Of a DNA stretch of 64,000 nt, positions 6,993 through 64,000 are shown piece after piece (within the stretch, counting starts at the first letter, position 1; each line of letters begins with the position of its first letter). The position numbers and the translations under genes are program-made. This stretch comes from Pycnococcus provasolii (lineage: Eukaryota > Chlorophyta > Pseudoscourfieldiophyceae > Pseudoscourfieldiales > Pycnococcaceae). The notes below the pieces were generated by a model. The model saw only the letters and a program-made list of their open reading frames with translations, was not told where the DNA came from and ran no database searches. The DNA lies in the NCBI GenBank assembly GCA_938743325.2, contig OW568864.1:62001-126000 (forward strand), given 5' to 3'.

Positions 6993-7271
6993 AAGGGAAG
7001 GGGAGACTCTCCGGTTTTGGCAAGTGGTCTCTAGGTTAGGGACAAAGTCAAGGGGACCGAGTGCAAGGGAAGCCTGTGTATGTAGTTTGCCGTGTTCCCG
7101 TTCCCCTGTGTCTCGGCTAGGAAGTGCCGTACGTTGCCCGGCGGCCGGGAGGTGAGCGGTAAGTACGGGTAGGGCAGCCCCTCTCGCGTAACGCGTCGTC
7201 TTTTGCTCTTTTGATCACGTGACGTCCCGTGAACCAACGAAAAAGATCCCACTCCTTTGGGGGAGGCGAAG

Positions 7272-7313
7272 CTAACCCTAACACGAGCCCGAACACCAAC
7301 CCTAAACCCTAAC
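7272..7313 (-). repeat. Degenerate telomere-like units (CCCTAA on plus strand)
   Basis: CTAACCCTAAC at 7272-7282 and AACCCTAAACCCTAACG at about 7298-7314 flank a GC-rich spacer, abutting the distal end of the shared 3'-flank element. Confidence 0.6.
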
Positions 7314-7434
7314 GCGCAGGGAATGGCACCGGGGAATGAACGGGCAGAACGGGGAAAGTGAGTGGTGTGAATGGACAACCGCTGGACAGACAGAGTAAAG
7401 TACACTTCATTACTGAACGAGGGATGCTCAGGTT
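7311..7434 (-). other. Shared 3'-flank element, copy 1 (downstream of YceD-like gene)
   Basis: Read on the gene strand it begins a few bases after the stop codon and includes CTCGTTCAGTAATGAA, GTCCATTCACACCACTCACT and GGTGCCATTCCCTGCGCGTT. The same order of blocks recurs at 42315-42427, again immediately 3' of a minus-strand gene. It is either a common 3'-UTR signal or a short dispersed repeat. Confidence 0.65.
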
Positions 7435-7438
7435 GTCG

Positions 7439-8482: not shown

Positions 8483-8688
8483 CAGAAGAAGCAGACACCA
8501 GACACCAGTCCCAAAACCAAAACCAAACGCAAACGCAAACGGGTTCCCAGGGAGTGTAACATCTCCGTAATAATGGGGATCCCTCCTAGCACCAATATCC
8601 TCTCCCTCTTCCCTTTCCCATTTTCAAATCCCTCCCCAACAGCTTTTCAACCCACAGACTGACAGACGGACAGCTTCCCTATTGACCC

Positions 8689-9747: not shown

Positions 9748-9779
9748 AATAAAATGAAATTTAGAGTAAAATTTACATT

Positions 9780-38381: not shown

Positions 38382-41300
38382 ATGGAGCTGTCGCGTCCAT
38401 GCGCGCGCACAGTGCAGCTCCTGCTGGGCGTGAAACTTACCAGTAGTGCGTCGAACACGGACGAATCCTCCCTCGACGAACTCGACGAAGATGAGTACGG
38501 TCTCAATAACTTCAGCGAAAGAAGAAGAGGAAGAAGAAACGGAAGAAGAAGAAGTCTCGTCTCTGTGCCGGATGCGCTGTGCGAAAAGTTCGAGTGCGGC
38601 GTGCTCGTCGCAGAGCTCGTTGGCGCAATTGCCGCACGCAAGCACGGAACGAACGCGCGCGCACCGCTCGACGCATTCGTCAGAAAGTGCAACGCCGTAT
38701 CTAAGGCGCACAACTGGAACCTGCTCACGCCAGCGCTCGCGACGTGCGGAGTCAGCCTGGACCCGGACATGCGCGCTCTCATCGTCGCCGGAGACGTAGA
38801 CGTCGTCGCAGACGTCGTCGAGGCGCTCGTCAGGAACGCGAACGACGGCGACAGTAACGGAAAAGGCGGCCAAGGGAAACAGGAGGTGCGCCAAAAGAAG
38901 AAGCGGCAACAAACGCGGAACGACGACGACGTGGCGCAGCCACCAGCTGCGGAAACGCCAACACCACAGCCGTCAGCTTCGCCGTCAAAGCTGCCACCAA
39001 TCAAGGCTGGTGGCAACAACGAGCGTGGCGCAGCAAGTGCCGTCACGCTCCCGGGGAAGCAGTCGTTCACTTCGTGCCAGGAGTACCTCGCACACGCGCT
39101 GCAACTGCACTTTGGAATCTCGCGCGAACGTGCCCGAGAGCTGCTCACGACGGACGTCGAGCTGCTTGCAGACTGGCTCAGCTGCGGCACACCGCCTGGA
39201 CAATTCCGATCCATACGGGCGTGGCTAGGCCAGCTGACGGACGACGTGATGACGGTCGCCGCATTATTTGACGGCCTGTGCGTCGGCGGCGCAAGTGGAG
39301 CACCCGTGCTTCTGTCCCTGCTCGCAACCGGACTTGCGGCGGACGATCGCAAGGTGAACGCAGACACGCTTCACCTTCTTGCATCGCTCGGCGGCGCACT
39401 CGCGAAGCTGAACGGAGGCGCTCACACCGCCTTCAGAAGATGGTTCGACGCCACGAGCGTCGCAGAGGGTGCGCGTTCGCCCTACTCCGTCGTCGTCTCG
39501 CTGTTTAGCGAAGTCGAGGAAAGCGACGGTGATCGAGATGCCATGGCGCTCGCAGGCGCCGCTCTCGAGGCGCTCGAGGCGGCAGGAGGTGGTGGTGGAT
39601 CTGCAGCTCTCGTCGGGCGACGTGCGCTCGCAGAGTGCGCCAACTTTGATGCGTATGCGCGCTACTTTCGTGCCATGCATGCGGCGATGACTCGTTCATC
39701 CGTGGATCCGCGAGTGCCGGCGAGACGTCTGGCGGGCGAGGCTGTGACAATCCTGACTGCCGCGCATGGCCACGTAAGCTCGGCGATGGGCAACGCAGAA
39801 CGCGACCAGGAGTCCGCAAGAAATGCCATCGCGACTTTCGTTGACGTCTGGATCGCGCTGATTCCAGAGGGCGAGGCGTCCGCGGCGGCGATTCTGCACG
39901 AAAGCCTTTCCCTTCTTCGAAGCCTGCCAGTCGACTCGCTCGGCGCGCACGGTGTTTACGATCCGCTCTTTGCATTGCTCCGCGCGCAGTGGCAGAAGGG
40001 TGGACGATTTGCCACGCTCGTGTTCCGTGCTGTGCTGTACCGCTTCGCCACAGCGAGCTACGACGAGGATGCGCCGCGAGACGTGGATGCCGAGGTTCGC
40101 GACGTCGCTCTCGCGCACTGGCGCAACCTCGTCGTCCAGGGTGCAGGGTCCGCGGGATCTGCGACAGCACTTGGCGAGCGAGCTCGCGCGATTGCGCGAT
40201 GTGTGAACGAGTTGGCTGTTGCCTTTGCGCGCCTCTTGATTCCTCGCGTCGAGGCATCGACGGGTGACAGCGACCCACTCGCTCGTGGCGAGTACATGCT
40301 TCTGGCGGAGCTTGCGTCGCACAAGTACCTCGACGCCGAGGGTGCCGCGGCGGTCGCACGTGTGCTCGCGTACTACGCCCTTCTCGCACCAGAGGATGTC
40401 ATTACAGCCGCAGCCTGCGACCGTCTCGCGGTGCTTGTAGACCGCCACGGTACGGACGACGGCGTTTCGAGCACTTGCCATTCGCTTGCGGCTTCTGCAA
40501 GGAGTGGCGGCGGCGGCGGCATCTCTCTTGCTGCGGCGCGCGTACTAGCTTCCGTGTGCCGGCCAAGCGCGAAGCCGCATGCCGCCGAGCTACGCGCGCA
40601 CGTCGTCGCGGCACTGGAGGAGAAACAGCGTGGCGGAGGAGGTGCGGCGGAGCGCGTGCTACGCGTCGCGCTACGTCGCTTCGACTCGGGAGAGGACGAG
40701 CCGGCGAGTTCGCCACCGCCGCCACTTTTTGAGAACGTTGCCGGGGACTTTTCTGCCCGCGATGCGGATGTACGCGCAATGCGTCGCGGTCCTCCGCCGA
40801 AGCGCGAGCCTGCGCCGAGTGCCACGAGCTCGAATCAGACGATCATGCTGGAGCACGACTTCTTGCCTGCGCTCGACGAAAAGAAGGTGACGCCCGTGCA
40901 GAGGCGAGCTCAAAATCATCAGCAGCAGCGCGAGCACGCGCCAGGGTACGCGACCAGCCTCGCGCGGCGTCGCGACGAAATTGCGGCAATTGCGGAGCGT
41001 CGCGCGTCGCGCCTCGCGGCGGTTCAGCAAGAGAAGCTGCAAGATGCTGATCGCGAGCGACGTCTGAAGGAGAAGCTAAGGCGAAAGCGTGAGGTGGCTG
41101 CGGAGGCTGCAGCAATGAGAAGAAAGCGTGTTGTGGATGCCGTGTTAGCTGCGGACGCGGAGGATCGGCAGGAGGCACGCAAGCGAGCGCCGCAGCCGAA
41201 GCCCGCCAATCAGAAAAATCGGGAAGATGGCAAGGTGGTCGACGGCATTTTGGACGAGCTCGTCGCGCAGCTCGCGAACGAAGAGCTTGGGCCAGGGCGG

Positions 41301-42110
41301 CGTGCGGCTGGTCGAAGGAGACCAGCCGCTGTTGCACGCAGATCGCCACCACCTCCTGCTCTGCCGAAACGTGCGAAGCTGGGTGGAGGTAAGAAACCTC
41401 CTCCGTTCGTCTCGCAAATTGGCGCCGCGATACTTGCCGATGCGCTCGAGGCTTCGAAGGGGCTTGCTGCGAAAAAATCAGGTGCGAAGGCAGCGGCTAT
41501 TGGAGGCATTGCTGCTGAGGCATCTCCGTCGCGCCATGCACTTCGTGCAAGAGAGGCACGCGCGAAGCGCGAGGCGAAAGCCAAGGAGGTGGCGGAGAAG
41601 GCGGAGGCGGAGAAGGCGGCAGAGAAGAAGGTGGAGGCGGAGAAACGACAGGCTGATGCAGCACGTCGCAAGCGTGACAAGGCTAAGCTGAGTGCATGGC
41701 GAGCGGAGCGTGAGAAGGAGAAGGCCGAGAAAGACAAGGTGGCGAAGGCTGCTGAGGCTGCGGCGAAGGAAGAGGAGACGAAAGCCTTTGAGAAGCGTTC
41801 GCTCAAGGCGAAGGAAAGGCTGCAGCGCAAGGGTGGCAAGGCTGCGGTGGATGCTTCGTTGGAGGAGATTGAGAAGGCGATGGAGAATTTGGCGGAGCCG
41901 CCAAAGGAGGAGCCGGTGGTGGCGGCGGCAGCTGCTGCTCCCGCCGCAGTTCCCGAGGAGCAGGAGCAGGAGCCGGTGGTGGCGGCGGCTGCTGAGGAGA
42001 AGGAGCAGGAGCAAAAGGCGGAAGAGGAGGCTGACGAGGCTGCTGGAGGTGTCGATGTAGCTGCAGCTGTTGCCGAATTCGCAGCCGCCGCGGAGGAGGA
42101 GCAACTGTAG
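38382..42110 (+). CDS. Large protein with CH-like N terminus, helical-repeat middle and coiled-coil tail; possible cytoskeletal/ciliary protein
   Basis: 1242 residues from ATG 38382. Residues about 60-150 (VPDALCEKFECGVLVAELVG, then KCNAVSKAHNWNLLTPALAT) have the spacing of a calponin-homology-like domain (FxxGVLxAEL then NWxxL). Residues ~220-800 are Ala/Leu-rich helices in repeating pairs, consistent with ARM/HEAT. From ~850 on, long Lys/Glu/Ala-rich coiled coils (AKREAKAKEVAEKAEAEK and similar) dominate. CH-like plus coiled-coil architecture is common in microtubule and axoneme proteins. With a CFAP144-like and an Sfi1-like gene in the same window, a ciliary or basal-body role is plausible but unproven. 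I cannot name the family. Confidence 0.7.
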   Translation: MELSRPCARTVQLLLGVKLTSSASNTDESSLDELDEDEYGLNNFSERRRGRRNGRRRSLVSVPDALCEKFECGVLVAELVGAIAARKHGTNARAPLDAFVRKCNAVSKAHNWNLLTPALATCGVSLDPDMRALIVAGDVDVVADVVEALVRNANDGDSNGKGGQGKQEVRQKKKRQQTRNDDDVAQPPAAETPTPQPSASPSKLPPIKAGGNNERGAASAVTLPGKQSFTSCQEYLAHALQLHFGISRERARELLTTDVELLADWLSCGTPPGQFRSIRAWLGQLTDDVMTVAALFDGLCVGGASGAPVLLSLLATGLAADDRKVNADTLHLLASLGGALAKLNGGAHTAFRRWFDATSVAEGARSPYSVVVSLFSEVEESDGDRDAMALAGAALEALEAAGGGGGSAALVGRRALAECANFDAYARYFRAMHAAMTRSSVDPRVPARRLAGEAVTILTAAHGHVSSAMGNAERDQESARNAIATFVDVWIALIPEGEASAAAILHESLSLLRSLPVDSLGAHGVYDPLFALLRAQWQKGGRFATLVFRAVLYRFATASYDEDAPRDVDAEVRDVALAHWRNLVVQGAGSAGSATALGERARAIARCVNELAVAFARLLIPRVEASTGDSDPLARGEYMLLAELASHKYLDAEGAAAVARVLAYYALLAPEDVITAAACDRLAVLVDRHGTDDGVSSTCHSLAASARSGGGGGISLAAARVLASVCRPSAKPHAAELRAHVVAALEEKQRGGGGAAERVLRVALRRFDSGEDEPASSPPPPLFENVAGDFSARDADVRAMRRGPPPKREPAPSATSSNQTIMLEHDFLPALDEKKVTPVQRRAQNHQQQREHAPGYATSLARRRDEIAAIAERRASRLAAVQQEKLQDADRERRLKEKLRRKREVAAEAAAMRRKRVVDAVLAADAEDRQEARKRAPQPKPANQKNREDGKVVDGILDELVAQLANEELGPGRRAAGRRRPAAVARRSPPPPALPKRAKLGGGKKPPPFVSQIGAAILADALEASKGLAAKKSGAKAAAIGGIAAEASPSRHALRAREARAKREAKAKEVAEKAEAEKAAEKKVEAEKRQADAARRKRDKAKLSAWRAEREKEKAEKDKVAKAAEAAAKEEETKAFEKRSLKAKERLQRKGGKAAVDASLEEIEKAMENLAEPPKEEPVVAAAAAAPAAVPEEQEQEPVVAAAAEEKEQEQKAEEEADEAAGGVDVAAAVAEFAAAAEEEQL

Positions 42111-43196: not shown

Positions 43197-44193
43197 GGCG
43201 ATGGCGAGGGAGGGCGGGGGGGGGAACCTCTCGAGAGGCTTATCCACCCCCCACTGGAGGGCCTTGGAGCTGCTCGGAGCTGAGCCACACGGAGCACAGG
43301 GAGAGTTTGAGAGACCTCGGAGGGATCCCCCTGTCGGATTTCTCTCGCCTCTTCGAACCGGTATCCCCTCCTGCCCTCCTGACTGATGGGGTTTATTACA
43401 GTAGGGCAGGCGTCGTACCCTTACATAACCCTTGTAACTTAGTCTACCGTTCAGCGTGCTCGTGGTCGTGCTCGTGGTCGTGCTCGTGGTCGTGCTCGTG
43501 GTCGTACTCGTGGTAAACTTTACTACTGTATGTGGTGGTCCCTGCCAGAACCTGCCAGACCTGCCAGATGCAGATGCCCAGACCAATATTAGAGACCAGA
43601 CCAGACCACCCTGCCTTAACCTTATTCTCGACTCTGGTGTCAGGTTCACTGGTGGCCTTGATCACTCCTCAAACGCGGCCGCACGGACGGAACCTAATTA
43701 AGAACGGGCAACTTGCAAGAAGGCGAGAAGAACTTCACTCAGGGCAAGACAAAAGGGTGTACAAGGCCGTGCAAAAGACCACTTCACGTGGTTTAGGGCG
43801 CCCGTGCGTACACCGGGTGGGTCCCACAACGGACGTGTGTAGTACTACGATAGTCTACTGTGAAGTGGTCTCCTCCTCTTTTGCTCCATACCTGTACGCG
43901 TCCGTCTCTGTCAGTCTGTCGTCGTCTCTGCGGCTTAAGCTTGCCTTAAGTCTTTCTCAGTAGTCGTTAAGTTAAGTTAGTTACCTACAGCCGTATCGTA
44001 TCGTATCGTATCGTATCGTGTGTTCGCCTCACCGCAACACACTAGTACTAGTACTGCTGTCTCAAGAAAACGCGTGGGTCTCTCGCTTCACCATATCGAG
44101 TGGAGTGGAGTCAACGTCAACGCCAAGCCTTGGAAGCCAAACCTAGACGAAAGAGACAGAGAGAGACCCACAGGAACCATAAAAACAACTGTG
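43197..44193. promoter_or_regulatory. 1-kb divergent region upstream of the proline-rich protein gene
   Basis: Contains a 12-mer minisatellite (43457-43514), CTTAAG palindromes (about 43930-43950), TAGTCTA (43851-43857) and a CGTAT pentamer run (about 43993-44018). No credible gene. Confidence 0.45.
43457..43514. repeat. 12-mer minisatellite (GTGCTCGTGGTC)n
   Basis: About five tandem copies of GTGCTCGTGGTC, the last a variant with GTAC. Confidence 0.8.
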
Positions 44194-44715
44194 ATGGCGT
44201 ATCTATCCGGGAGAAGAAGAAGTCGGCGCCTGCTCGCAGGGGGCGACTTCCTCGTCGTCATCGCCGCCGTCGTCACCATGTCGGTGCTCATGACGACGAC
44301 CCTAACCAGAGCACAGCAGCCTTCGGCAACCTTCTGCAAGTTCAGTGAAAACGCAGACTGCAGCCCGCCACCGCCGCCACCACCCCTGCCGCCTCCACCG
44401 CTAAGGCCGCCGCCGCCAGTCGCTCCGCTCTGCGTCGATCGGCAGGAGGTTGAGAGGTGCTCGCCACCTCCGCCTCCACCGCCGAGCCCGCCGCCGCCGT
44501 ACCCGCCGTGCGGATACAAAATCGAGGAACTGGAGGTGCGGTGCTCGCCACCGCCACCGCCGAACCCGCCGTCTCCACCACCACCTTCCCCTCCTCCTTT
44601 GCCACCGCCACCGCCGCCCAATCCTCCACCACCTCCTCCGCCGATATCGCCGCCACCTCCTCCTCCTAACCCTCCCCCGCCTCCACCTCCGCCGCCGCCG
44701 CCGTCGCCACCGCCA

Positions 44716-44747
<32 letters not shown>

Positions 44748-46743
44748 GTCGCCACCGCCACCGATTTGCATACACACGGACTGGGAAAGGCCTGAGCAGT
44801 GGGTACCGCCACACCTCCTTCCGAGGGCGAACGATAGCTCGCTCGAAATCGAGGTGCCTTGCCCACCTCCGCCAAGTCCGCCGCCGAATCCGCCGAATCC
44901 ACCGCCGCCACCGAGTCCGCCGCCGCCGCCGAGTCCGCCACCACCACCCGTTCCCGTTTGCGTGTTCGCAAAAGAGCAGGAACGGCCGTGCCAACCTCCT
45001 CCACCTCCGCCGCCGCCGCCGCCATCGCCTCCACCCTCCCCGCCACCGCCGCCGTCTCCACCACCAAATCCACCAAATCCGCCCAGGCCTCCGCCTTCAC
45101 CTCCGCCGCCTCCAAGTCCTCCACCAAGTCCGCCGCCGCCTCCTCCACCGCCGCCAACGCCGCCGCCGCCAACGCCGCCAGGCCCACCCCCAAGCCCGCC
45201 GCCGATGCCCCCACCTCCCAGCCCACCGCCGCCGCTGCCGCCGCCACCCTCGCCGCCTCCGCCGCCCGTACCCTCGCCACCCCAAAGCCCACCACCGCCA
45301 TCGCCGCCGCCGCCGCCGTCGCCGCCGCCGCCACCTCTGCCCCCCTCACCTCCGCCAGATGCACCACCCTCGCATCCGCCCCTGCCGCCACTTCCCGGCC
45401 TCGCGCCGCTCGAAAATGCACTGGTGGCAACGGTAGCCGTGAGCGGCGTGCGCTCCGTCGGAAGCCTCGGCTTCTCGGTCGTCTTCCGATCTGCGGTGGC
45501 AAATGTGACTGGCACGAAAATCACGGATGTGCACATCCTGCGTATCGCGCCGGCGCGCGTGTTCCTAGGCAAGCACCGGAGAACGCTGCTTGACGAGCCC
45601 GAGCGCCGTGCATTGGATGTGGTGCAGATCGCCGCGGCGGCGGTGACATTCATGATCAACGTTGGCGTTGACACTGGGCTAGGATGGCTGGAGCAGGTGG
45701 CAGCTTTGGTGGACAATAAGCTAGTGCGATCGATCGAGGATGGAACCATGCAGGTGATCCTGCGCGAGAAAGGAATGCCGAGCGTAGTCGTCACCTACGT
45801 TTCTATGCCGAAGCTAGAAGCTGCGCCCGTGGCAAGTCCTCCGCCGTCTCTGCCGCCACCGCCGTCTCCGCCACCGCCGCCACCTCGCGACACCACGTGG
45901 TGGAAGCAGGTGGGGTTCAAGTCGAGGAATGAGCTTTATACCGTTGGCGTCTCTATTCTCATCGGAATCTTCGTCCTTTGTCTTGTGCTTTACTTGTACA
46001 ACCAGCGCGCTCGTCGTTCTCGAGTGATTTCCGTTGACGAGCGTGCTCGTGCAATGGTTGGCGGGACGACTGACAAGGCGATGATAAGCGTGGACATGCA
46101 GAAAAAGCTAGCAGGAGTTTCGAAGCGCTTACAGCTGAAAGCAAAGGCCCATCGTGATGAACCAACGACGGAAGATGGTGCGATAGTTGCCGCGCCGCCG
46201 CCCGCGATCGAAGATCCCTTGCCGCTGGCATTCAAGAAGGAAGAGGATGGCGACGAGGAAAATCTGGCTGAAGACGACGACAGGGATATTGATACCCCGC
46301 CCATTGACCCTCAGGCGCGTGCACGGGACAGCTTGCTCAACCTCAACCCTTACTCGCTTAAGGACCCGCGTGCCACCGCTCTCTTGGCAGCTCTTGACGG
46401 CCCAAGCACGGCACCAGCCCCAACTGCCTCAGCTGCTCAAGCACCAGCTCGAACGAAGCTCTGGAATCTGTTCGGAACGAAGTCTGAAGATCCATCGTCC
46501 CAGGAGCAGGGAAATCAACCTCCTCCGCCTGCGCCGAGCGTGCCATTCGTTTCTCTTGCTGATGTGCACGGCCCTCCGAGGGACTCGGTGGAGGATGGCG
46601 GAAAGCCGAAGGCGAAGAAAAAGGGTCGATTTTTCTCTCGTTTTTCGCGAGGTAAGAATAAGGAGGAGGCTGCGCCAACTGCTGAAGAGGATAAGGATGA
46701 GGATACGTCTGCTGCGACAACAACAACGTCGACCGCCAGCTAA
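44194..46743 (+). CDS. Membrane-anchored hydroxyproline-rich glycoprotein (pherophorin/extensin-like)
   Basis: 849 residues from MAYLSGRRRSRRLL (ATG 44194; the longer frame to 44020 is leader). A hydrophobic segment (FLVVIAAVVTMSVLM) acts as signal peptide or anchor. Residues ~60-400 are PPPPSPPPP-type runs, substrates for prolyl hydroxylation and arabinosylation, interrupted by five short cysteine-bracketed inserts (first CKFSENADC; others C...ERC or C...VPC/RPC). A non-repetitive domain (~400-540) follows, starting PLENALVATVAVSGVRS. A second Pro run, then a transmembrane helix (YTVGVSILIGIFVLCLVLYLY) near residue 590 and a ~240-residue acidic/Lys-rich cytoplasmic tail. It probably links the wall to the cell interior; partners are unknown. 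Confidence 0.8.
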
Positions 46744-53323: not shown

Positions 53324-53492
53324 AATCTTCAGTTCTACTTGTTTAATTGGGGTTTTTGATTAGGGGGAGTCGCTCGCGCAGCTGGTTCTGGGCGGCCGCC
53401 CGGCGGGTCTCGAGACCCTCCGGCGGCCTCTCCCTTAAGGCTGCTCGCGCGTATCCACTCTTGCTGTTGGTTGCTTGCTTCGCAAACAACCT
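53324..53492 (+). repeat. Split direct repeat A1 (left end of retroelement)
   Basis: 169 bases, starting AATCTTCAGTTCTACTTG; identical by eye to 57815-57983. Confidence 0.93.
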
Positions 53493-53655
53493 AACAGCCG
53501 CACTACACGCGAGTAGTGGGAGGTCGAACACACGCCGAACGCGTCTTCGAGGGACGTAGTTCGTGTACCGAAACGGTCTGAATACCTACGTTTAGATCGA
53601 AACATCAGCAACCTTCGATTGGAAGTTTACTGTTGGATTCTTAATCGATTGATTA

Positions 53656-54474
53656 ATGGGTGACGCGCCGAACGAACTCGAGGTTCTGGAAGCTCGTCGC
53701 GAAATATTGCAGCTGGAGATTGCGCTAGCGCAGGAGCGCCGTGCAGCTGCAGAAGCAGAGCAGAAGGGCAAGAAAGCGGCCGAAGAAGGAGGCGAGCCTA
53801 CGTTAGATTACGTGGTGCCGGCCAGCTATCCGGACGCTCGCCACGCGGAGTCGCTACCTACGACTGGGATTCCGCGTCGTGGCAAGCCAACACTGCTTTC
53901 CTTGCCGTCGAACCCTGTTCTTCAGCACCTAGAGGCTGAATCGGTGAAACAGGGACACGCGTCTTCGCATAACGCGTGGATTTTCCGATCGATTGTGAGT
54001 GTCAGCGCATATCTGGAACTCGGAGTGCTGAGTCTTCAGCAGGAGACTGACGACCGAGTGGAGGAACTAGCGACTTACGTCGAAGAGAACCTGGACGTCG
54101 AGCGCGGAGACGACGGGAAACCGTTAGATCCAGAAGGAGACGAAGAGAAGCTGGCGCGCTTCAACGAGCTGAACAAGAAGATCGCGAGGATTGACTCCGT
54201 TCTGGAGCGCACGCGCAACACGCTCACAGGCGTCCTGGAGCTCGCCGCGGAGTTGGAAGACTTCTTCGTAGCGAACAAGGGACCGCGTACCGTCATTACG
54301 AAGGAGACGGCCGACGCCACACTGGCACAGCTGCTGGAGGAGACGACCGCCTACCCACCGCGCTCGAAGCGAACCACCCGCATCCAGAAAGAGATCCGCT
54401 CTAACAGGGCGACTCAGATTGCCAAGCAAGCGGCTGTTAAGTCGGTGGCAACCAACAAAAAGGATAAACCTTAG
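53656..54474 (+). CDS. Gag-like ORF of the retroelement
   Basis: 272 residues with an N-terminal charged helix (VLEARREILQLEIALAQERR), a central helical region and a basic C terminus. No zinc knuckle is seen. Position before the RT ORF and the 76-base gap fit the Gag-like ORF of DIRS-order elements. Confidence 0.7.
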   Translation: MGDAPNELEVLEARREILQLEIALAQERRAAAEAEQKGKKAAEEGGEPTLDYVVPASYPDARHAESLPTTGIPRRGKPTLLSLPSNPVLQHLEAESVKQGHASSHNAWIFRSIVSVSAYLELGVLSLQQETDDRVEELATYVEENLDVERGDDGKPLDPEGDEEKLARFNELNKKIARIDSVLERTRNTLTGVLELAAELEDFFVANKGPRTVITKETADATLAQLLEETTAYPPRSKRTTRIQKEIRSNRATQIAKQAAVKSVATNKKDKP

Positions 54475-54550
54475 CGGCGCATGCTGCGCAGCTGGGGGAG
54501 GGTTGGAGGGCGGTTGGCGAGAACGGAAGGAACGGAAGGAATAACAACGG

Positions 54551-56572
54551 ATGTGCCTGGGGAAGCGCATACTGAGGACGAGCGATCGCGTGGGCAGTCG
54601 CTTGGCCGCTCAGGTCAGGGAACAGCTGGAGGAGTGGCGCCGGATCGGCGCGGGCCCGCAGCTGTTGCACTGGATTGCCAAGGGAGTGGCGATCACATTC
54701 ACGAACGGTCCTCCCCCGTCGTACGACTTGGGCGCGAGCCTAACGTCGATGACGGAGGAGGAAAACAGCTTCATGGAGGCGGAGACGTCACGCCTCCTGA
54801 AGCTGGGAGCATGGGAGGAGATCGACGGCGGAGCGGCGCACTGCGTCAACCGCGTTCATCTGGTCCCGAAGGTGGGATCGAAGAAATTCAGGCTGGTCAT
54901 CGATCTAAGGCCGCTGAATCTATTCTGCGGGGAAGCTACCTGCAACGTCGAAGGGTTGCGAGAGCTGAACCATATCCTGCAGCCTCAGGATTTCATGGTG
55001 GCGCTGGATCTTACAGACGGATATTTCCACCTGGATATGGCGGAGGAGTCGAGGACGTACATGGCCTTCCGCATCGGAAAACGGCTGTTCAGAATGGCGG
55101 CGGTTCCCTTCGGGTGGAATCACGCCCCGAGCGCCTTCACGAAACTGCTGGAGCCAGTGGTGGCGCATCTGAGGCAGCCGCAACGCGCCGAGCAGCGCGA
55201 GGTAAGCCGTACGCAGAAGCACATCCCGCTACGTCAGCGAGCCGGGCACCGCCACGCCCGCCTCCTGTGGTACATGGACGACTTCCTGCTCGCAGGTCGA
55301 ACGGCGAAGGAGACAGCAGCATTGAGAGACGAAGCCGCTGGTCTGTTCGCAAAGCTGGGCTTGACGCTGCAGCAGGAGAAGTGCGTGTGGGAACCTACGC
55401 AGAGACTCAAGCACTTGGGTCTGATCGTGGACACGAAGCTGGGGATCTTCCAAGTCGACGAGGGCAAGGCGGACAAGCTCCGTCGCCTCGCACGGGACCT
55501 GCTGTGCGAGGCTCAGCGCTCGCAGAGGAAGGTGCGGAAGCGCGAGCTGGCAGCCTTCGCTGGCTTGGGGCAGTTCGTACACCTGGCGCTGCGGCCGGCG
55601 AGGTTCCACTTACGCGAGATCTACGACGTGATCGGCACGCTGCAAGGATGGAACGGACGCGTCTCACTCACGAAGCAGGCGCTCCGAGATCTGAGATGGT
55701 GGGCACGCCTCCGGGCCGAGGATACGGGCTGTCCGATCTGGCGCCCGATCGAAACGGCCACGCTGCACACCGACAGCTCTGGATTCGCCTGGGGAGCCGT
55801 GCTCGACGGCAAGCTGGAAGCACGCGGCTACTGGACGTCGGAGGAAGCGGAGGATCACATCACGCTCAACGAGTTGCGCGCAGTGACGCGAGCAGTGACA
55901 ACATTCAGATCGCAACTCGAAGGCAAAACAGTACAGCACTTCGAGGACAACATGGGCGTGGTACATATCATAAACGGATTGACCACCCGCTCCCCGGCGA
56001 TCATGACGGAGCTGCGTCTGCTGTGGAGGGTGCTCGATCTGAACGGCATCAACCTCCTCACCGAGTACATAAACACGAAGGAGAATGTGCAGGCGGACGC
56101 TCTCAGTCGCCTCGACGACGAGGAAGACTGGCAGCTGAACCCGAAGGTGTTCCGGATGATAGACGCCGTCGAGCAGCATTCAGTGGACAGGTTCGCGACG
56201 GCATTGAACGCGTTGCTACCGCGGTTCAATTCGCGCTGGGAGCAACCGGGCGCAGAGGCGGTCAACTCGCTCGCGCTGAGCGACGAGCAGTGGCGCAGCG
56301 AGAAGAATTGGTGCAACCCGCCGTGGAGTCTGCTGCCAACATTGGCGGACAAGTTGGAGCAGTCGGGCGCCGCAGCTACCGTCGTGGCACCGGATTGGCC
56401 GAGGGAGAACTGGGCAGCGAAGCTCGACGCCCTGGCGATCGAGGTCACGCGGATCCCGGCTCACACCGGACTGTTCATCCCGGGCCGACGGCGGACAGCA
56501 CACGGGGCAGGCGCGCCTCGCTGGGACGTCGTGGTATATCACATACCACGGCGACCGCCCCGGCATTCGTGA
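54551..56572 (+). CDS. Reverse transcriptase-RNase H ORF of the retroelement
   Basis: 673 residues. RT motifs include RLVIDLRPLN, a FMVALDLTDGYFHL block, VPFGWNHAPSAFTKL and the catalytic LLWYMDDFLLAG. RNase H follows with TLHTDSSGFAWGAVL, TLNELRAVTRAV and a DNMGVVHIIN segment. This RT-RNase H style is that of DIRS-order elements rather than Ty1 or Ty3 LTR elements. The ORF end overlaps the start of the recombinase region in another frame, as is usual in the order. Confidence 0.92.
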   Translation: MCLGKRILRTSDRVGSRLAAQVREQLEEWRRIGAGPQLLHWIAKGVAITFTNGPPPSYDLGASLTSMTEEENSFMEAETSRLLKLGAWEEIDGGAAHCVNRVHLVPKVGSKKFRLVIDLRPLNLFCGEATCNVEGLRELNHILQPQDFMVALDLTDGYFHLDMAEESRTYMAFRIGKRLFRMAAVPFGWNHAPSAFTKLLEPVVAHLRQPQRAEQREVSRTQKHIPLRQRAGHRHARLLWYMDDFLLAGRTAKETAALRDEAAGLFAKLGLTLQQEKCVWEPTQRLKHLGLIVDTKLGIFQVDEGKADKLRRLARDLLCEAQRSQRKVRKRELAAFAGLGQFVHLALRPARFHLREIYDVIGTLQGWNGRVSLTKQALRDLRWWARLRAEDTGCPIWRPIETATLHTDSSGFAWGAVLDGKLEARGYWTSEEAEDHITLNELRAVTRAVTTFRSQLEGKTVQHFEDNMGVVHIINGLTTRSPAIMTELRLLWRVLDLNGINLLTEYINTKENVQADALSRLDDEEDWQLNPKVFRMIDAVEQHSVDRFATALNALLPRFNSRWEQPGAEAVNSLALSDEQWRSEKNWCNPPWSLLPTLADKLEQSGAAATVVAPDWPRENWAAKLDALAIEVTRIPAHTGLFIPGRRRTAHGAGAPRWDVVVYHIPRRPPRHS

Positions 56573-57786
56573 TTCCGCGCAAGCGCGTGGCGCCGCGCGT
56601 CCAGCGTCAGTACAAGGTGCAGCAGGGGGCGATCGCACCGTGGGCTAGCGCGATTCGCAAACGCATGGAGCGCATTGCGCCGGGCGACCCTGACGGCTTA
56701 ACCGATTGGGTTGCCCAGTCCTTGTCAGCTGGATCGTACCGCACGTACGGAGGAACATGGCGTATGTTCCAGAAATACTGCGATGGAGCTGGCGTCTGCT
56801 CGCTGCCGGCTACGTCATACACGGTCGCATGCTACCTCAAGTGGCTGGGCGAGCGTGGCACGGTCCAGAAAAAATCACTGAAACCGTATCTATCGGTGAT
56901 CAATACCGTGCACAAAGACTTGGGGTACCGTCAGCGACCCGCGATTGGCGCTCTCGTTAAGTCCATGAAGCGGGCCTACGGGCGCAAGGTAGTCCGCATC
57001 AGACCGGCACCGCGCATCCTGGTGATGCCCGCACGCATCATCCTGGACATGTGGCACCGCGTTGAGAAGCTCACAGCTCTACCTGATCTCGAGTACATTA
57101 CCAAGCTCCCCGAGATTCGGGCACTCCTCGCGTGCATTGTCTGCTACATTACCGGGTCGCGCCCGAGTTCCATTGCGTTACTGCCGCTGACGGGTGTCTC
57201 GTTCGCACTGGGCTCGGAGCTTGGCATCCAGCGCTCTTACGTCAAGACTGCTCCGGATGCTTGCGACTTCGACGTTCCCGGCCGCAGAACGGTCAGCTGG
57301 CCAGTGACTGCCACGTGGCAGACGCTGGGCCGAATGCTCATGCGCTACGACCGGATGCGCCGGCGGGTGTGCTCGCGGGCGACGCACTTCTTCAACCTTG
57401 GGGAGAAGGCGCGTGGCGACGCGTTTGCGCGCTGGCTGCCGGTAGCGCTGCGAGCTGTTGGAGCTGCAGCCCCGCCCAACGGACACTACGCGCCCAAGAG
57501 CTTTCGCTCTGGGTTCGCGTCCGCGGTGACCGCGATGAACGTCTCACCCGACAGACGTAACTACATCGCGGGCTGGGCTGCTAATTCGCATGCGGTCGGC
57601 ACTCACTACGTCGACAACAGTGTCGTCGTTGATGACGCCGCCCGCTTCCTTTTTGGCCACCTCATCGGCTTGCCGCCGCCTCCTGTGGAGGTGCCTGTCG
57701 CGCCTGTCGCGCCTTGGAGCTCGCCGCTGGCCAATTTGGCGTCACGATTGGTGACACTCGTCTCTCCTCTTCGTGGAGATACGTGA
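56569..57786 (+). CDS. Tyrosine recombinase ORF of the retroelement
   Basis: About 405 residues; the start is uncertain because the frame is open far upstream across the RT ORF. An N-terminal SAM-like domain (SLSAGSYRTYGGTWRMFQKY) is followed by the catalytic domain: Arg in ITGSRPSSIALL, KSFRSGF as the (H/K)xxR box and a Tyr in GTHYVDNS. This enzyme replaces integrase in DIRS-order elements. Confidence 0.88.
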   Translation: MIPRKRVAPRVQRQYKVQQGAIAPWASAIRKRMERIAPGDPDGLTDWVAQSLSAGSYRTYGGTWRMFQKYCDGAGVCSLPATSYTVACYLKWLGERGTVQKKSLKPYLSVINTVHKDLGYRQRPAIGALVKSMKRAYGRKVVRIRPAPRILVMPARIILDMWHRVEKLTALPDLEYITKLPEIRALLACIVCYITGSRPSSIALLPLTGVSFALGSELGIQRSYVKTAPDACDFDVPGRRTVSWPVTATWQTLGRMLMRYDRMRRRVCSRATHFFNLGEKARGDAFARWLPVALRAVGAAAPPNGHYAPKSFRSGFASAVTAMNVSPDRRNYIAGWAANSHAVGTHYVDNSVVVDDAARFLFGHLIGLPPPPVEVPVAPVAPWSSPLANLASRLVTLVSPLRGDT

Positions 57787-57792
57787 CTATGA

Positions 57793-57816
57793 TGGCAATA
57801 CTGGCCCCCCCTAAAA
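57793..57816 (+). repeat. Split direct repeat B1
   Basis: 24 bases (TGGCAATACTGGCCCCCC then CTAAAA) immediately before A2, repeated at 58077-58100. Confidence 0.85.
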
Positions 57817-57983
57817 TCTTCAGTTCTACTTGTTTAATTGGGGTTTTTGATTAGGGGGAGTCGCTCGCGCAGCTGGTTCTGGGCGGCCGCCCGGCGGGTC
57901 TCGAGACCCTCCGGCGGCCTCTCCCTTAAGGCTGCTCGCGCGTATCCACTCTTGCTGTTGGTTGCTTGCTTCGCAAACAACCT
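57815..57983 (+). repeat. Split direct repeat A2
   Basis: Second 169-base copy of A1, overlapping B1 by the two bases AA. Confidence 0.93.
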
Positions 57984-58076
57984 CCCACCCTCCCTCCCTG
58001 TTGACTATAGTTGGTTACTGGAGCAGGAGACCTACTTTTGGTTTTAATTTCGGTTTGTGTAAAAGATGACCTTCAT

Positions 58077-58100
58077 TGGCAATACTGGCCCCCCCTAAAA
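58077..58100 (+). repeat. Split direct repeat B2 (right end of retroelement)
   Basis: Second copy of the 24-base B repeat; marks the probable right end of the element. Confidence 0.85.
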
Positions 58101-58517: not shown

Positions 58518-61500
58518 ATGATGACGAGAACAAGGAGGAATCGGCAACGCATCAACAGTGGTGGTCGTCGATGCTGCAGTTCTGCGTCTGTGGTGACAAT
58601 GATGATGATCGTCGTCGAATTGCTCATTGTTGTGTCGATTGGTGGTTTAGCAGCAGCACAACAACAACAACGTCGAGAGCTGCAGCAGCAGAAATGCGAG
58701 ATGGAACAGAACGCGAACTACAGAGGCGTTATCCTCGTAGATGGAGTGACAAATCTAAAGGACACGGCGGATGAGTGCTGCCAAGCATGTCGGGATCTTT
58801 TCGGATGCAACACTTGGGCGTACTGCGGTACTGCTGGTGGTTGTTACGGTCCGTACGTTCACAAAGCGTGCTTTCTCAAAGCTTTATCTCCGGAAGAGCT
58901 TGTGCTCGACGAAGTGCCGGCGTGGAGTCGAGGACCGTACACGCCATGGACCAGTGGCATTTTGAAAGATGCACCTGTGATTGCTGCGGAGATCCGAGCA
59001 GGGCAAGAAGATGCGAACCAACAGTGGAACGGAACAAATTGGCCAGCCAAATCTAACACAGGTACAGTCTCCTCCGGCGGGTTTTCTCTCGAAGCCAATG
59101 CCAACTACGCGGGTGAGGTGCTCGTCGACGGTCGCCAGAATCTGAAATCGTCCGTCGAAGAGTGCGGCGAAGCGTGTCTCGCGAACCCATCGTGCACCAC
59201 ATTCTCGTACTGCGGCAAACCGGAGGGATGCTACGGAGACTTCGTGTACCAGTCGTGTTTCCTCAAGCGGCATGATAACCCGTCAGCTCGCGAGGCGTAC
59301 GAGCGTGAGTCGTGGACGCCTTGGACGAGTGGAATTGTCGAGCGTGGGGGCGGCACCGGATCATCGCCGCCGCCGCCGTCATCGACTACGTCTACGCCTA
59401 CGCCCAGCACAGGAACTGCCTCTGGCGGCTTTAGTCTCGAGACGAATGCCAACTACGCGGGTGAGGTGCTCGTCGACGGTCGCCAGAATCTGAAATCGTC
59501 CGTCGAGGAGTGCGGCGAAGCGTGTCTCGCGAACCCATCGTGCACCACATTCTCGTACTGTGCAAAGCCCGAAGGGTGCTACGAGGACTTCGTCTTCATG
59601 AGCTGTTTCCTCAAGCGGCATGACAACCCGCAGGCGCGTGAGGCGTACTCGCGCGACGAGTGGACGCCTTGGACGAGTGGCGTCGTCGAGCGTGGGGGCG
59701 GCACCGGATCATCGCCGCCGCCGCCGTCATCGCCTTCGCCTACGCCCAGCACAGGAACTGCCTCTGGCGGCTTTAGTCTCGAGACGAATGCCAACTACGC
59801 GGGTGAGGTGCTCGTCGACGGTCGCCAGAATCTGAAATCGTCCGTCGAGGAGTGCGGCGAGGCGTGTCTCGCGAACCCATCGTGCACCACATTCTCGTAC
59901 TGTGCAAAGCCCGAAGGGTGCTACGAGGACTTCGTCTTCATGAGCTGTTTCCTCAAGCGGCATGACAACCCGCAGGCGCGCGAAGCCTATTCGCGCGACG
60001 AGTGGACGCCTTGGACGAGTGGAATTGTCGAGCGTGGGGGCGGCACCGGATCATCGCCGCCGCCGCCGTCGTCTCCTATGCCTGCGCCTACGCCCAGCAC
60101 AGGAACTGCCTCTGGCGGCTTTAGTCTCGAGACGAATGCCAACTACGCGGGTGAGGTGCTAGTCGACGGTCGCCAGAATCTGAAATCGTCCGTCGAGGAG
60201 TGCGGCGAAGCGTGTCTCGCGAACCCATCGTGCACCACATTCTCGTACTGTGCAAAGCCCGAAGGGTGCTACGAGGACTTCGTCTTCATGAGCTGTTTCC
60301 TCAAGCGGCATGACAACCCGCAGGCGCGCGAAGCCTATTCGCGCGACGAGTGGACGCCTTGGACGAGTGGCGTCGTCGAGCGTGGGGGCGGCACCGGATC
60401 ATCGCCGCCGCCGCCGTCGTCTCCTATGCCTACGCCGAGTGCGGGCACCAGCGCTGGCGGCTTCTCTCTCGAAGCCAATGCCAACTACGCGGGTGAGGTG
60501 CTCGTCGATGGTCGCCAGAATCTGAAATCATCCGTCGAAGAGTGCGGCGAAGCGTGTCTCGCGAACCCATCGTGCACCACATTCTCGTACTGCGGCAAAC
60601 CGGAGGGATGCTACGGAGACTTCGTGTACCAGTCGTGTTTCCTCAAGCGTCACGACAACCCGTCAGCTCGCGAGGCGTACGAGCGTGAGTCGTGGACGCC
60701 TTGGACGAGTGGAATTGTCGAGCGTGGGGGCGGCACCGGATCATCGCCGCCGCCGCCGTCATCGACTACGTCTACGCCTACGCCCAGCACAGGTTCTTCC
60801 TCTGGCGGCTTTAGTCTCGAGACGAATGCCAACTACGCGGGTGAGGTGCTAGTCGACGGTCGCCAGAATCTGAAATCGTCCGTCGAGGAGTGCGGCGAAG
60901 CGTGTCTCGCGAACCCATCGTGCACCACATTCTCGTACTGTGCAAAGCCCGAAGGGTGCTACGAGGACTTCGTCTTCATGAGCTGTTTCCTCAAGCGGCA
61001 TGACAACCCGCAGGCGCGCGAAGCCTATTCGCGCGACGAGTGGACGCCTTGGACGAGTGGAATTGTCGAGCGTGGGGGCGGCACCGGATCATCGCCGCCG
61101 CCGCCGTCGTCTCCTATGCCTGCGCCTACGCCCAGCACAGGAACTGCCTCTGGCGGCTTTAGTCTCGAGACGAATGCCAACTACGCGGGAGAGGTGCTCG
61201 TCGACGGTCGCCAGAATCTGAAATCGTCCGTCGAGGAGTGCGGCGAAGCGTGTCTCGCGAACCCATCGTGCACCACATTCTCGTACTGTGCAAAGCCCGA
61301 AGGGTGCTACGAGGACTTCGTCTTCATGAGCTGTTTCCTCAAGCGGCATGACAACCCGCAGGCGCGTGAGGCGTACTCGCGCGACGAGTGGACGCCTTGG
61401 ACGAGTGGCGTCGTCGAGCGTGGGGGCGGCACCGGATCATCGCCGCCGCCGCCGTCATCGCCTTCGCCTACGCCCAGCACAGGAACTGCCTCTGGCGGCT

Positions 61501-64000
61501 TTAGTCTCGAGACGAATGCCAACTACGCGGGTGAGGTGCTCGTCGACGGTCGCCAGAATCTGAAATCGTCCGTCGAGGAGTGCGGCGAAGCGTGTCTCGC
61601 GAACCCATCGTGCACCACATTCTCGTACTGTGCAAAGCCCGAAGGGTGCTACGAGGACTTCGTCTTCATGAGCTGTTTCCTCAAGCGGCATGACAACCCG
61701 CAGGCGCGTGAGGCGTACTCGCGCGACGAGTGGACGCCTTGGACGAGTGGCGTCGTCGAGCGTGGGGGCGGCACCGGATCATCGCCGCCGCCGCCGTCGT
61801 CTCCTATGCCTACGCCTACGCCCAGCACAGGTTCTGCCTCTGGCGGCTTTAGTCTCGAGACGAATGCCAACTACGCGGGAGAGGTGCTCGTCGACGGTCG
61901 CCAGAATCTGAAATCGTCCGTCGAGGAGTGCGGCGAAGCGTGTCTCGCGAACCCATCGTGCACCACATTCTCGTACTGTGCAAAGCCCGAAGGGTGCTAC
62001 GAGGACTTCGTCTTCATGAGCTGTTTCCTCAAGCGGCATGACAACCCGCAGGCGCGTGAGGCGTACTCGCGCGACGAGTGGACGCCGTGGACGGGTGGCA
62101 TCGTCGAGCGTGGGGGCGACAGCGGATCGTCACCACCGCCGCCGTCGTCATCGCCTGCGCCTACGCCGAGCACAGGTTCTTCTGCCTCTGGCGGCTTTAG
62201 TCTCGAAGCCAATGCCAACTATGCTGGAAGGGTGCTTGTCGACGGTCGTCAGAATCTGAAATCGTCCGTCGAAGCGTGCGGCGAATCTTGCCTTGCCAAT
62301 CCACAGTGCACCACGTTCTCGTACTGCCCGAAGCCGGAGGGATGCTACGAGGACTTCGTCTTCCAGAGCTGTTTCCTGAAAGTTCACGACAACCCGCAGG
62401 CGCGTGAGGCGTACTCGCGCGACGAGTGGACGCCGTGGACGGGTGGCATCGTCGAGCGTGGGGGCGGCACCGCCGGAGGAGTATCAACGTACGCATCTGC
62501 GCCATCATCGGCGCCTGCACCTGCGCCTGCGCCGAGCAGCCCAACTCTGTCATCCCAACTCGCAGAGGCAGGAATTGCCTCTGGCGGCTTCTCTCTCGAA
62601 GCCAATGCCAACTATGCTGGAAGGGTGCTTGTCGACGGCCGTCAGAATCTGAAATCGTCCGTCGAAGAGTGCGGCGAATCTTGCCTTGCCAATCCACAGT
62701 GCACCACATTCGCATACTGCCCGAAGCCGGAGGGATGCTACGAGGACTTCGTCTTCCAGAGCTGTTTCCTGAAAGTTCACGACAACCCGCAGGCGCGTGA
62801 GGCGTACTCGCGCGACGAGTGGACGCCGTGGACGGGTGGCATTGTCGAGCGTGGGGGCGGCACCGCCGGAGGAGTATCACCGTACGCATCTGCGCCATCA
62901 TCGTCGCCTGCGCCTGCACCTAAGCCGAGCACAGGTTCTTCTGCCTCTGGCGGCTTTAGTCTCGAGACGAATGCCAACTACGCGGGAGAGGTACTCGTCG
63001 ACGGTCGCCAGAATCTGAAATCGTCTGTCGAAGCGTGCGGTGAATCTTGCCTTGCCAATCCACAGTGCACCACATTCGCGTACTGCGGCAAGCCGGAGGG
63101 GTGCTTCCAGGACTTCGTCTTTCAGAGCTGTTTCCTCAAGCGTCACAGCTCTCCTGAATTGCGCGAAGCCTATTCACGAGACGAGTGGACGCCGTGGACA
63201 TCAGGTGTCGTCGAACGAAAAGGAACCTCGAGCAGTGTTGGTGTGAATCCGGCAACTGGGTCGGGTACATCACCGCCAGCTGTGCAGCAAGGAGGTGGAG
63301 CAGCATCCGTGTATAGCAATGTGCCGTATGTGCCACCTACCGCGGACATTCGGATGCAGGATGGGAAGCCTATCGGGTACCCGAATCCGCTTGAGCCACC
63401 ACGCGGAGTCTATCTTGGCGTGTCACCGCAGGAGGTGAATGGAACGGCAGATTTGCAAAGGTACCTGACAGCATTTGGAGGTTTCGTTCCCGTGAATTAC
63501 AACATCTTTGTGCACATTCCGATTCTGGACTATCAACTTCGTTATCTGGACCAGTTTCTAGCCCAGGTGGCTGGACTTGGCGGCGTCGCCACAGTCACCG
63601 TGGAACCCTTCGACGGGCTGGATCTTGTGACACCATCGACGATTGCGCCCATTGTGGAGAGGTGCGCATTCTTCGAGCGCATGCGCGCAAGCTGCATCAT
63701 TCGCTTCGCGCACGAAATGAATGGTGGCTGGTATCCTTGGAGTCGTCAGCCCACCAAGTACGTGGAGAAATTCCGACTCGTCAGTGATGCCGTGCGCAGG
63801 GGTACGAAGCGAGGCGCCGTCATGTGGAGCCCAAACAGCGCGGCAAGGGACTACCCATTCGCTGCCCCGTCTGATTTGGCGGGCAATCCAGAATTCGCTC
63901 GACTGGACACGAATCGTGATGGCATCGTCAACAATCGCGACGACCCGTTTGGACCCTACTGGCCCGGCGACTCGTACGTCGATTGGGTTGGACTCAGTGT
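58518..64000 (+). CDS. Very large secreted protein: 13 PAN/Apple-like modules plus GH26 glycosidase domain, 3' end off the window
   Basis: One uninterrupted frame of 1827 codons from ATG 58518 (in-frame TGA at 58491) to the window edge. A basic N terminus and hydrophobic run (MMMIVVELLIVVSIGGLAAA) form a signal peptide or anchor, then Gln-rich sequence. Thirteen modules follow, each with cysteines spaced C-x3-C-x5-C-x5-C-x5-C-x8-C and ending WTPWTSG or similar, joined by Pro/Ser linkers. From ~63390 a GH26-type domain begins (LGVSPQEVNG), with the acid/base block IIRFAHEMNGGWYPW near 63695-63740, an EF-hand-like DTNRDGIVNNRDD loop (63906-63944) and YVDWVGLS at the edge; the second catalytic Glu is beyond the window. 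GH26 enzymes cleave beta-mannans or related beta-glycans. It probably acts outside the cell or on the wall, the PAN-like modules binding glycan or protein (inference). Confidence 0.85.
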   Translation, partial: MMTRTRRNRQRINSGGRRCCSSASVVTMMMIVVELLIVVSIGGLAAAQQQQRRELQQQKCEMEQNANYRGVILVDGVTNLKDTADECCQACRDLFGCNTWAYCGTAGGCYGPYVHKACFLKALSPEELVLDEVPAWSRGPYTPWTSGILKDAPVIAAEIRAGQEDANQQWNGTNWPAKSNTGTVSSGGFSLEANANYAGEVLVDGRQNLKSSVEECGEACLANPSCTTFSYCGKPEGCYGDFVYQSCFLKRHDNPSAREAYERESWTPWTSGIVERGGGTGSSPPPPSSTTSTPTPSTGTASGGFSLETNANYAGEVLVDGRQNLKSSVEECGEACLANPSCTTFSYCAKPEGCYEDFVFMSCFLKRHDNPQAREAYSRDEWTPWTSGVVERGGGTGSSPPPPSSPSPTPSTGTASGGFSLETNANYAGEVLVDGRQNLKSSVEECGEACLANPSCTTFSYCAKPEGCYEDFVFMSCFLKRHDNPQAREAYSRDEWTPWTSGIVERGGGTGSSPPPPSSPMPAPTPSTGTASGGFSLETNANYAGEVLVDGRQNLKSSVEECGEACLANPSCTTFSYCAKPEGCYEDFVFMSCFLKRHDNPQAREAYSRDEWTPWTSGVVERGGGTGSSPPPPSSPMPTPSAGTSAGGFSLEANANYAGEVLVDGRQNLKSSVEECGEACLANPSCTTFSYCGKPEGCYGDFVYQSCFLKRHDNPSAREAYERESWTPWTSGIVERGGGTGSSPPPPSSTTSTPTPSTGSSSGGFSLETNANYAGEVLVDGRQNLKSSVEECGEACLANPSCTTFSYCAKPEGCYEDFVFMSCFLKRHDNPQAREAYSRDEWTPWTSGIVERGGGTGSSPPPPSSPMPAPTPSTGTASGGFSLETNANYAGEVLVDGRQNLKSSVEECGEACLANPSCTTFSYCAKPEGCYEDFVFMSCFLKRHDNPQAREAYSRDEWTPWTSGVVERGGGTGSSPPPPSSPSPTPSTGTASGGFSLETNANYAGEVLVDGRQNLKSSVEECGEACLANPSCTTFSYCAKPEGCYEDFVFMSCFLKRHDNPQAREAYSRDEWTPWTSGVVERGGGTGSSPPPPSSPMPTPTPSTGSASGGFSLETNANYAGEVLVDGRQNLKSSVEECGEACLANPSCTTFSYCAKPEGCYEDFVFMSCFLKRHDNPQAREAYSRDEWTPWTGGIVERGGDSGSSPPPPSSSPAPTPSTGSSASGGFSLEANANYAGRVLVDGRQNLKSSVEACGESCLANPQCTTFSYCPKPEGCYEDFVFQSCFLKVHDNPQAREAYSRDEWTPWTGGIVERGGGTAGGVSTYASAPSSAPAPAPAPSSPTLSSQLAEAGIASGGFSLEANANYAGRVLVDGRQNLKSSVEECGESCLANPQCTTFAYCPKPEGCYEDFVFQSCFLKVHDNPQAREAYSRDEWTPWTGGIVERGGGTAGGVSPYASAPSSSPAPAPKPSTGSSASGGFSLETNANYAGEVLVDGRQNLKSSVEACGESCLANPQCTTFAYCGKPEGCFQDFVFQSCFLKRHSSPELREAYSRDEWTPWTSGVVERKGTSSSVGVNPATGSGTSPPAVQQGGGAASVYSNVPYVPPTADIRMQDGKPIGYPNPLEPPRGVYLGVSPQEVNGTADLQRYLTAFGGFVPVNYNIFVHIPILDYQLRYLDQFLAQVAGLGGVATVTVEPFDGLDLVTPSTIAPIVERCAFFERMRASCIIRFAHEMNGGWYPWSRQPTKYVEKFRLVSDAVRRGTKRGAVMWSPNSAARDYPFAAPSDLAGNPEFARLDTNRDGIVNNRDDPFGPYWPGDSYVDWVGLS
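58710..63222 (+). repeat. Tandem array of 13 in-frame six-cysteine modules
   Basis: Modules begin (codon for the first Asn of NANY) at 58710, 59097, 59445, 59787, 60135, 60477, 60825, 61173, 61515, 61863, 62211, 62604 and 62970; every spacing is a multiple of three, mostly 342 or 348 bases. Modules 3-10 are nearly identical at DNA level; module 1 is diverged, and 11-13 form a separate subgroup (CPKPEG in 11 and 12, QSCFLKV). Confidence 0.93.
63390..64000 (+). other. GH26-like catalytic domain (partial)
   Basis: Within the PAN-GH26 frame. GVYLGVSPQEVNG opens the barrel, VTVEPFDGLD and CIIRFAHEMNGGWYPWSRQP follow (His-Glu-Met-Asn is the acid/base motif of the family), then MWSPNSA and SYVDWVGLSV. 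Cut by the right edge. Confidence 0.85.

Follow-up and report, generated by a model that had tools for sequence, protein, structure and literature searches.

A predicted secreted protein of the green alga Pycnococcus provasolii joins thirteen PAN/Apple modules to a GH26 domain

The stretch of DNA analysed here, hereafter the window, covers 64,000 nucleotides of contig OW568864.1 of Pycnococcus provasolii (positions 62,001 to 126,000), and at its right end lies a large open reading frame (ORF) coding for thirteen PAN/Apple modules followed by a domain of glycoside hydrolase family 26 (GH26). This combination is an unusual design built from known parts. The frame starts with an ATG on the forward strand and is still open, with no stop codon, at the window edge. 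An earlier note on this DNA had described a single open frame with a signal-type N terminus, 13 PAN/Apple-like modules and a GH26 domain with the motif HEMNG in the same frame, and our analysis bears out this description of its parts.

At the N terminus, a basic stretch precedes a hydrophobic core whose mean hydropathy peaks at 2.89 over 15 residues; past residue 60 of the visible part, the best 19-residue stretch reaches a hydropathy of 1.29. This signal-type N terminus suggests, by its hydropathy, that the protein is secreted.

Table 1. Features of the PAN-GH26 gene, in window coordinates.
Feature	Position	Strand	Basis or remark
Whole-protein ORF	58518..63998	+	1827 aa visible; 3' end beyond the window
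Putative signal peptide or anchor: hydrophobic core at about residues 25-48, preceded by a basic stretch	58590..58661	+	hydropathy only
PAN module 1, diverged, 8 Cys	58686..58970	+	Cys spacing; PAN_4 33.2 bits
PAN module 2	59073..59345	+	PAN_4 34.4 bits
Span of the nine Pro/Ser/Thr linkers that follow modules 2-10 (modules 3-10 lie between them)	59346..62186	+	one SPPPP per linker
PAN module 3	59421..59693	+	PAN_4, Cys spacing
PAN module 4	59763..60035	+	PAN_4, Cys spacing
PAN module 5	60111..60383	+	PAN_4, Cys spacing
PAN module 6, 99% identical (aa) to module 2	60453..60725	+	PAN_4, Cys spacing
PAN module 7	60801..61073	+	PAN_4, Cys spacing
PAN module 8	61149..61421	+	PAN_4, Cys spacing
PAN module 9, dN = dS = 0 against module 3	61491..61763	+	PAN_4, Cys spacing
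PAN module 10	61839..62111	+	PAN_4, Cys spacing
PAN module 11	62187..62459	+	PAN_4, Cys spacing
PAN module 12	62580..62852	+	PAN_4, Cys spacing
PAN module 13	62946..63218	+	PAN_4 28.7 bits
Linker rich in Ser/Gly/Pro, from array to catalytic domain	63219..63404	+	approximate end, judged by eye
Partial GH26 domain, 223 aa; first 17 residues below 50 in model confidence (pLDDT)	63330..63998	+	Pfam, profile, fold, tree
Predicted acid/base Glu of HEMNG, residue 1733	63714..63716	+	23/23 rows; aligns with HE of CtLic26A
EF-hand-like loop DTNRDGIVNNRDD inside the clade-specific insert	63906..63944	+	alignment, motif pattern

The PAN/Apple array and its linkers

The Pfam family PAN_4 (PF14295) matched 13 stretches of the protein, with 251.2 bits for the whole protein against a cut-off of 27, and the three modules scanned singly (1, 2 and 13) also scored above this cut-off. 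The WSC family, which the earlier note had named beside PAN and Apple as one to be searched, did not appear in the whole-protein Pfam scan, which gave 9 hits with E of 10 or less; the Wsc1 domain is itself described as adopting a PAN/Apple fold in a section of PMC9024836. Twelve of the 13 modules have exactly six cysteine residues in the spacing C-x3-C-x5-C-x5-C-x5-C-x8-C that had been proposed for all of them, and module 1 adds two further cysteines to the same six. A profile built from 7 of the 13 modules and searched against PDB had Toxoplasma MIC4, plasma kallikrein and Factor XI as its top matches (E 0.004-0.011). The predicted structure of a module (pLDDT 84.2) was compared with solved structures by Foldseek, and ranks 1, 3 and 5-10 were apple domains of Factor XI or kallikrein, with TMq of 0.58-0.67 and E of 0.02-0.075; the best E was thus 0.02, and no match reached E<=0.001. 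Taken with the Pfam result, the assignment of the array modules to the PAN/Apple family is firm.

Module 1 shares 40-44% amino acid identity with the other modules, and modules 2-13 are 81-100% identical to each other in protein and 75-100% in DNA. Module 13 shows 81-87% protein identity to modules 2-12 and is a near copy of none. The ratio of nonsynonymous to synonymous substitution (dN/dS) was 0.00-0.28 in the listed pairs among modules 2-13 for which it could be computed; pairs involving module 1 drop out through saturation of dS, and modules 3 and 9 drop out as a pair because they show no difference. The 1827-codon open frame and these low ratios together indicate that the ORF and its array are more than a product of chance. 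The modules fall into the subtypes {2,6}, {3,8,9,10}, {4,5,7} and {11,12}, which are partly interleaved along the array, so that the array probably owes its growth to duplication or conversion of blocks and not to copying of modules one by one. Tandem Repeats Finder reported a 348-bp tandem repeat of 9.8 copies with 91% matches. The array is a clear case of module amplification within a coding gene.

The motif SPPPP, which is the extensin motif of wall glycoproteins in plants and green algae, was found nine times in the protein, at residues 283, 399, 513, 629, 743, 859, 975, 1089 and 1205. Nine other large ORFs were picked in the window for comparison, and eight of them have 0-2 copies of the motif and one (44020-46740) has 20. 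The linkers thus carry the repeated Ser-Pro4 signature of extensin-type hydroxyproline-rich glycoproteins, and they are candidates for hydroxylation and O-glycosylation. Because the linkers are of extensin type, the case for the array as a tether is strengthened, and it is reasonable to infer that the array holds the enzyme in place. Such linkers mark the PAN-GH26 protein as a likely wall component.

The GH26 domain and its bacterial relatives

According to the earlier note, a hidden Markov model search placing the C-terminal domain outside GH26 would speak against the prediction. Scanned alone, the domain passed the Pfam GH26 cut-off (21.1 bits against 20.2); NCBIfam gave no match for either query. 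When a 23-row profile of the domain and its relatives was searched against solved structures, the best match was the GH26 lichenase CtLic26A with E 1.1e-62. The same profile found 46 distinct solved sequences at E<=0.01, 10 of which are constructs or fusions of CtLic26A; most of the others bear the names mannanase, xylanase or GH26, and a few are named differently. The predicted model, which covers only the visible part of the (beta/alpha)8 barrel and has a pLDDT of 78.8, matched 12 structures at E<=0.001 (TMq 0.47-0.57), namely 11 GH26 enzymes, led by the xylanase AlXyn26A and by CtLic26A, and one beta-glucosidase. Since profile search, fold search and tree (see below) agree, the C-terminal domain is firmly GH26 as a family, despite its marginal Pfam score.

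CtLic26A (endoglucanase H; PDB 2bv9, 2cip and others) was therefore the best sequence match and a near-best fold match among solved structures, and it shares the motifs HE-NG-WYPW and PGD-YVD with the window domain. It differs in its 20-21% identity in the fold alignments and in the EF-hand-like loop described below, which was not seen in the printed alignment; no PAN modules are named in its solved chains.

The HEMNG motif lies at 63711-63725. Its glutamate, the predicted acid/base, is invariant in all rows of the alignment, and the preceding histidine is replaced in L025 and, outside those rows, in L037. In the part of the domain that is visible, the remaining invariant columns of GH26 are intact as well. 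Among the bacterial rows, 21 of 22 have the nucleophile glutamate and one, L010, has a glutamine. In four bacterial members of the clade described next, this residue is found, in an ET context, 58-63 residues past the position equivalent to the window end.

Relatives of the domain turned up in bacterial genomes at 28 loci (Actinomycetota in 22 cases, going by record titles) and in viral contigs at one locus (L029). Ten Arthrobacter/Paenarthrobacter plasmids have relatives with 43.5-45.5% identity over about 59% of the query. Nine of these plasmid records are typed conjugative and one mobilizable, which makes them a possible vehicle for spread. In a tree built after removal of the insert columns, the window domain grouped with L001 (Nitriliruptoraceae), L002 and L032 (Cellulomonas marina) and L030 (a Paenarthrobacter plasmid), with support of 100/99 and identities of 34-39% over the domain to these four members.

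The clade is marked by an insert with the loop D-T-x-x-D-G-x5-D-D, common to the window domain, L001, L002, L030 and L032, with six positions invariant in all five sequences; none of the 20 further bacterial rows in the first alignment shows the pattern. The copy at L030:3563-4843 is the sole plasmid relative that was read for the insert. In its first 12 positions the loop is spaced like the calcium loop of an EF-hand or dockerin, and this putative EF-hand-like loop may bind calcium. A further strong relative, L037 (E 4.4e-26), which came up later and is no part of the tree, has the same loop with PEMNG replacing HEMNG, so that the histidine before the acid/base glutamate is not fixed among insert-bearing relatives. 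A search of 396 same-phylum genomes gave 16 with a match at E<=0.001, and of the three strong ones (E<1e-20) two were known already; with so few strong matches, the insert-bearing clade looks uncommon.

Pfam scored GH26 at 31.7-43.2 bits in L001, L030 and L032 and at 21.1 bits in L002. The statement that GH26 enzymes usually carry carbohydrate-binding modules (CBMs) did not hold for the relatives, as Pfam at E<=0.01 gave the ten bacterial ones scanned no domain other than GH26, apart from one sub-threshold TOBE_3 (L002). The actinobacterial sub-clade thus resembles the window domain in insert, loop and tree placement and differs in that its four tree members have no PAN modules by Pfam. A search for PAN_4 in the three genomes or records whose GH26 domains are closest, and in 14 control genomes, also found none, which does not show absence. 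On the Nitriliruptoraceae contig, three GH26-type ORFs are adjacent (L001:5515-9804; 5515-6966 +, 7101-8753 +, 8767-9804 -).

It is plausible, judging from sequence relationships, that the alga acquired the domain from Actinobacteria. Three scans of viral collections gave nothing pointing to a viral origin: the GH26 query returned 6 pattern-matching stretches, one of which is a relative (L029), one PAN module had no match, and the module alignment returned 68 stretches with 0 relatives.

Genomic surroundings

A probable retrotransposon lies directly upstream at 53324-58100, which we take to belong to the DIRS (tyrosine-recombinase) order. Its reverse transcriptase ORF (54551-56572) matched RVT_1 above the cut-off and RNase H below it, and an overlapping ORF (54481-57786) gave a sub-threshold phage-integrase match. 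Direct repeats pair 53324-53504 with 57815-57995 (97%) and 57793-57816 with 58077-58100 (100%). About 418 bp separate the right end of the element from the start codon of the PAN-GH26 gene, and the element may affect the promoter of this gene.

The window also codes for a fructose bisphosphatase (FBPase), for which, among the matches listed, four entries, presumably plant plastid enzymes, scored 504-523 bits against at most 296 for the other 35. Genes for RWP-RK+PB1, AP2 and H+-PPase proteins are present as well. The chloroplast-type FBPase, these three genes and the SPPPP-rich proteins suggest a fit with a green alga, and the long uninterrupted frames of these genes suggest few introns. ORF 44020-46740, the one with 20 SPPPP motifs, codes for a second Ser-Pro-rich protein, putatively a glycoprotein of wall or membrane; by eye it seems to have a transmembrane stretch, and Pfam gave no match. 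A CH_2 (flagellar-type) match at 38382-42107 was below the cut-off and was not used.

A candidate matrix-tethered glycanase

We consider it probable, though by no means assured, that the gene codes for a secreted, matrix-tethered GH26 beta-glycanase carried by a multivalent PAN/Apple rod with extensin-like linkers in a green alga. Its catalytic end would be a retaining beta-glycanase from the sub-clade with the calcium-type loop, whose other members in this analysis are actinobacterial. The thirteen modules, joined by Ser-Pro linkers that would bear hydroxylation and glycosylation, would act as a multivalent rod with lectin-like or protein binding. Such a rod could anchor the enzyme within the wall or matrix of the producing cell, or to a neighbour that bears polymers, and the enzyme so held would trim beta-linked glycans locally.

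Parts of this design have counterparts in known systems. In module profile and fold, the array resembles both TgMIC4 and SML-2, PAN/Apple lectins of apicomplexans; we know of no case in which these lectins are joined to an enzyme. A copper oxidase of Colletotrichum graminicola (PDB 6ryx, 6ryw, 6stx, 6ryv) was a fold match of the PAN module (TMq 0.58-0.60), presumably through its PAN domain. This PAN-like domain beside a secreted oxidase may serve as a precedent for pairing PAN with an enzyme; the oxidase belongs to another enzyme class and is without a long array. Wall binding or galactose binding by PAN/Apple proteins is described in PMC3532174 and PMC4055764. Among these proteins, the oomycete CBEL is a wall glycoprotein with PAN/Apple and CBM1 domains that binds galactose and N-acetylgalactosamine; it resembles the window protein in placing PAN/Apple modules in a polysaccharide-linked wall glycoprotein and differs in having two PAN and two CBM1 domains and being described as non-enzymatic, where the window protein has 13 PAN modules and a glycosidase domain (sections of PMC3532174). 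In the open-licence PubMed Central literature, no paper was found combining GH26 with a PAN domain, and nothing was found for the apple domain together with green alga and extracellular matrix; the two papers that name the PAN domain along with glycoside hydrolases and algae do not, to judge by title and opening lines, deal with GH26.

Several observations weigh against the proposed tethered glycanase. When the whole protein was scanned, the Pfam GH26 score fell to 11.8 bits, below the cut-off, and the model used for the fold search was the best of five, with mean pLDDT of 67.6-78.8. Both the nucleophile position and the stop codon fall beyond the window, and catalysis is a prediction only. 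The window row has a long end branch in the tree (1.63), and joins of long branches may be false. The module profile also matched a non-PAN protein, nuclear receptor coactivator 4, at E 0.044, and the lectin role is suggested by the family and fold of the modules rather than by known PAN-lectin binding residues.

The earlier note had suggested wall mannan or a surface matrix as a possible anchor of the enzyme, and the idea of mannan goes back to the family name. A beta-mannanase docked on wall mannan by the array appears unlikely to us, even though many GH26 enzymes are mannanases and several were among the profile and fold matches. With a broad profile, the lichenase CtLic26A scored 215 bits and the mannanases at most 84, though this profile is dominated by bacterial rows; with a narrow five-row profile the gap was small (42.1 bits for the lichenase against 36.8). 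In the fold search a xylanase and lichenases came ahead of mannanases. With CtLic26A as the best solved sequence match and mannanases and xylanases behind it, the proposal of wall mannan is unsupported, and a beta-glucan substrate is weakly favoured, with mixed-linkage glucan perhaps slightly preferred over mannan.

The same likeness to a lichenase would also suit an enzyme aimed outward, which digests lichenan-like beta-glucan of fungal or microbial neighbours with the PAN rod as an adhesin for the partner; such digestion has been proposed for a GH8 that lichen algae acquired horizontally. A table in the review PMC9434271 gives GH26 as expanded in lichen photobiont genomes, and a horizontally acquired GH8 of lichen algae is described in part of PMC11126685 as cutting mixed-linkage glucan. 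However, the term GH26 is absent from the main text of the latter paper, and no feature of the window points to a lichen or terrestrial alga as host, which leaves this use of the enzyme quite unlikely.

Most of the visible protein is array and linker, and the second catalytic residue is outside the visible part, as would be expected of a mainly structural matrix rod of PAN modules and extensin-like linkers in which a non-cutting GH26 fold serves as a binding domain. The intact HEMNG and invariant columns speak against this, and we regard it as very unlikely. That the 13 copies or the fusion itself are an assembly artefact of the 348-bp repeat, as the repeat statistics and the identity of modules 3 and 9 might suggest, is highly improbable, since the linkers and the outer modules are not alike, the frame stays unbroken and the GH26 joint follows the distinct module 13, although the module copy number may be wrong.

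Beyond the tethered glycanase, we tentatively propose a more specific history, which we hold to be possible but doubtful. A bacterial-derived GH26 beta-glucanase would have been captured by the alga and joined, instead of to a CBM, to a self-amplified rod of 13 PAN lectin modules with extensin linkers, which would build the enzyme into the algal wall and let it remodel its own or a partner's wall in place, a new architecture among carbohydrate-active enzymes (CAZymes). With its GH26 part, the alga would have a bacterial-type glycanase to set beside the reported GH8 of lichen algae. Annotation of CAZymes searches for CBMs, and if PAN arrays dock enzymes in algae, some enzymes of algal walls may end up classed wrongly as adhesins or unknowns.
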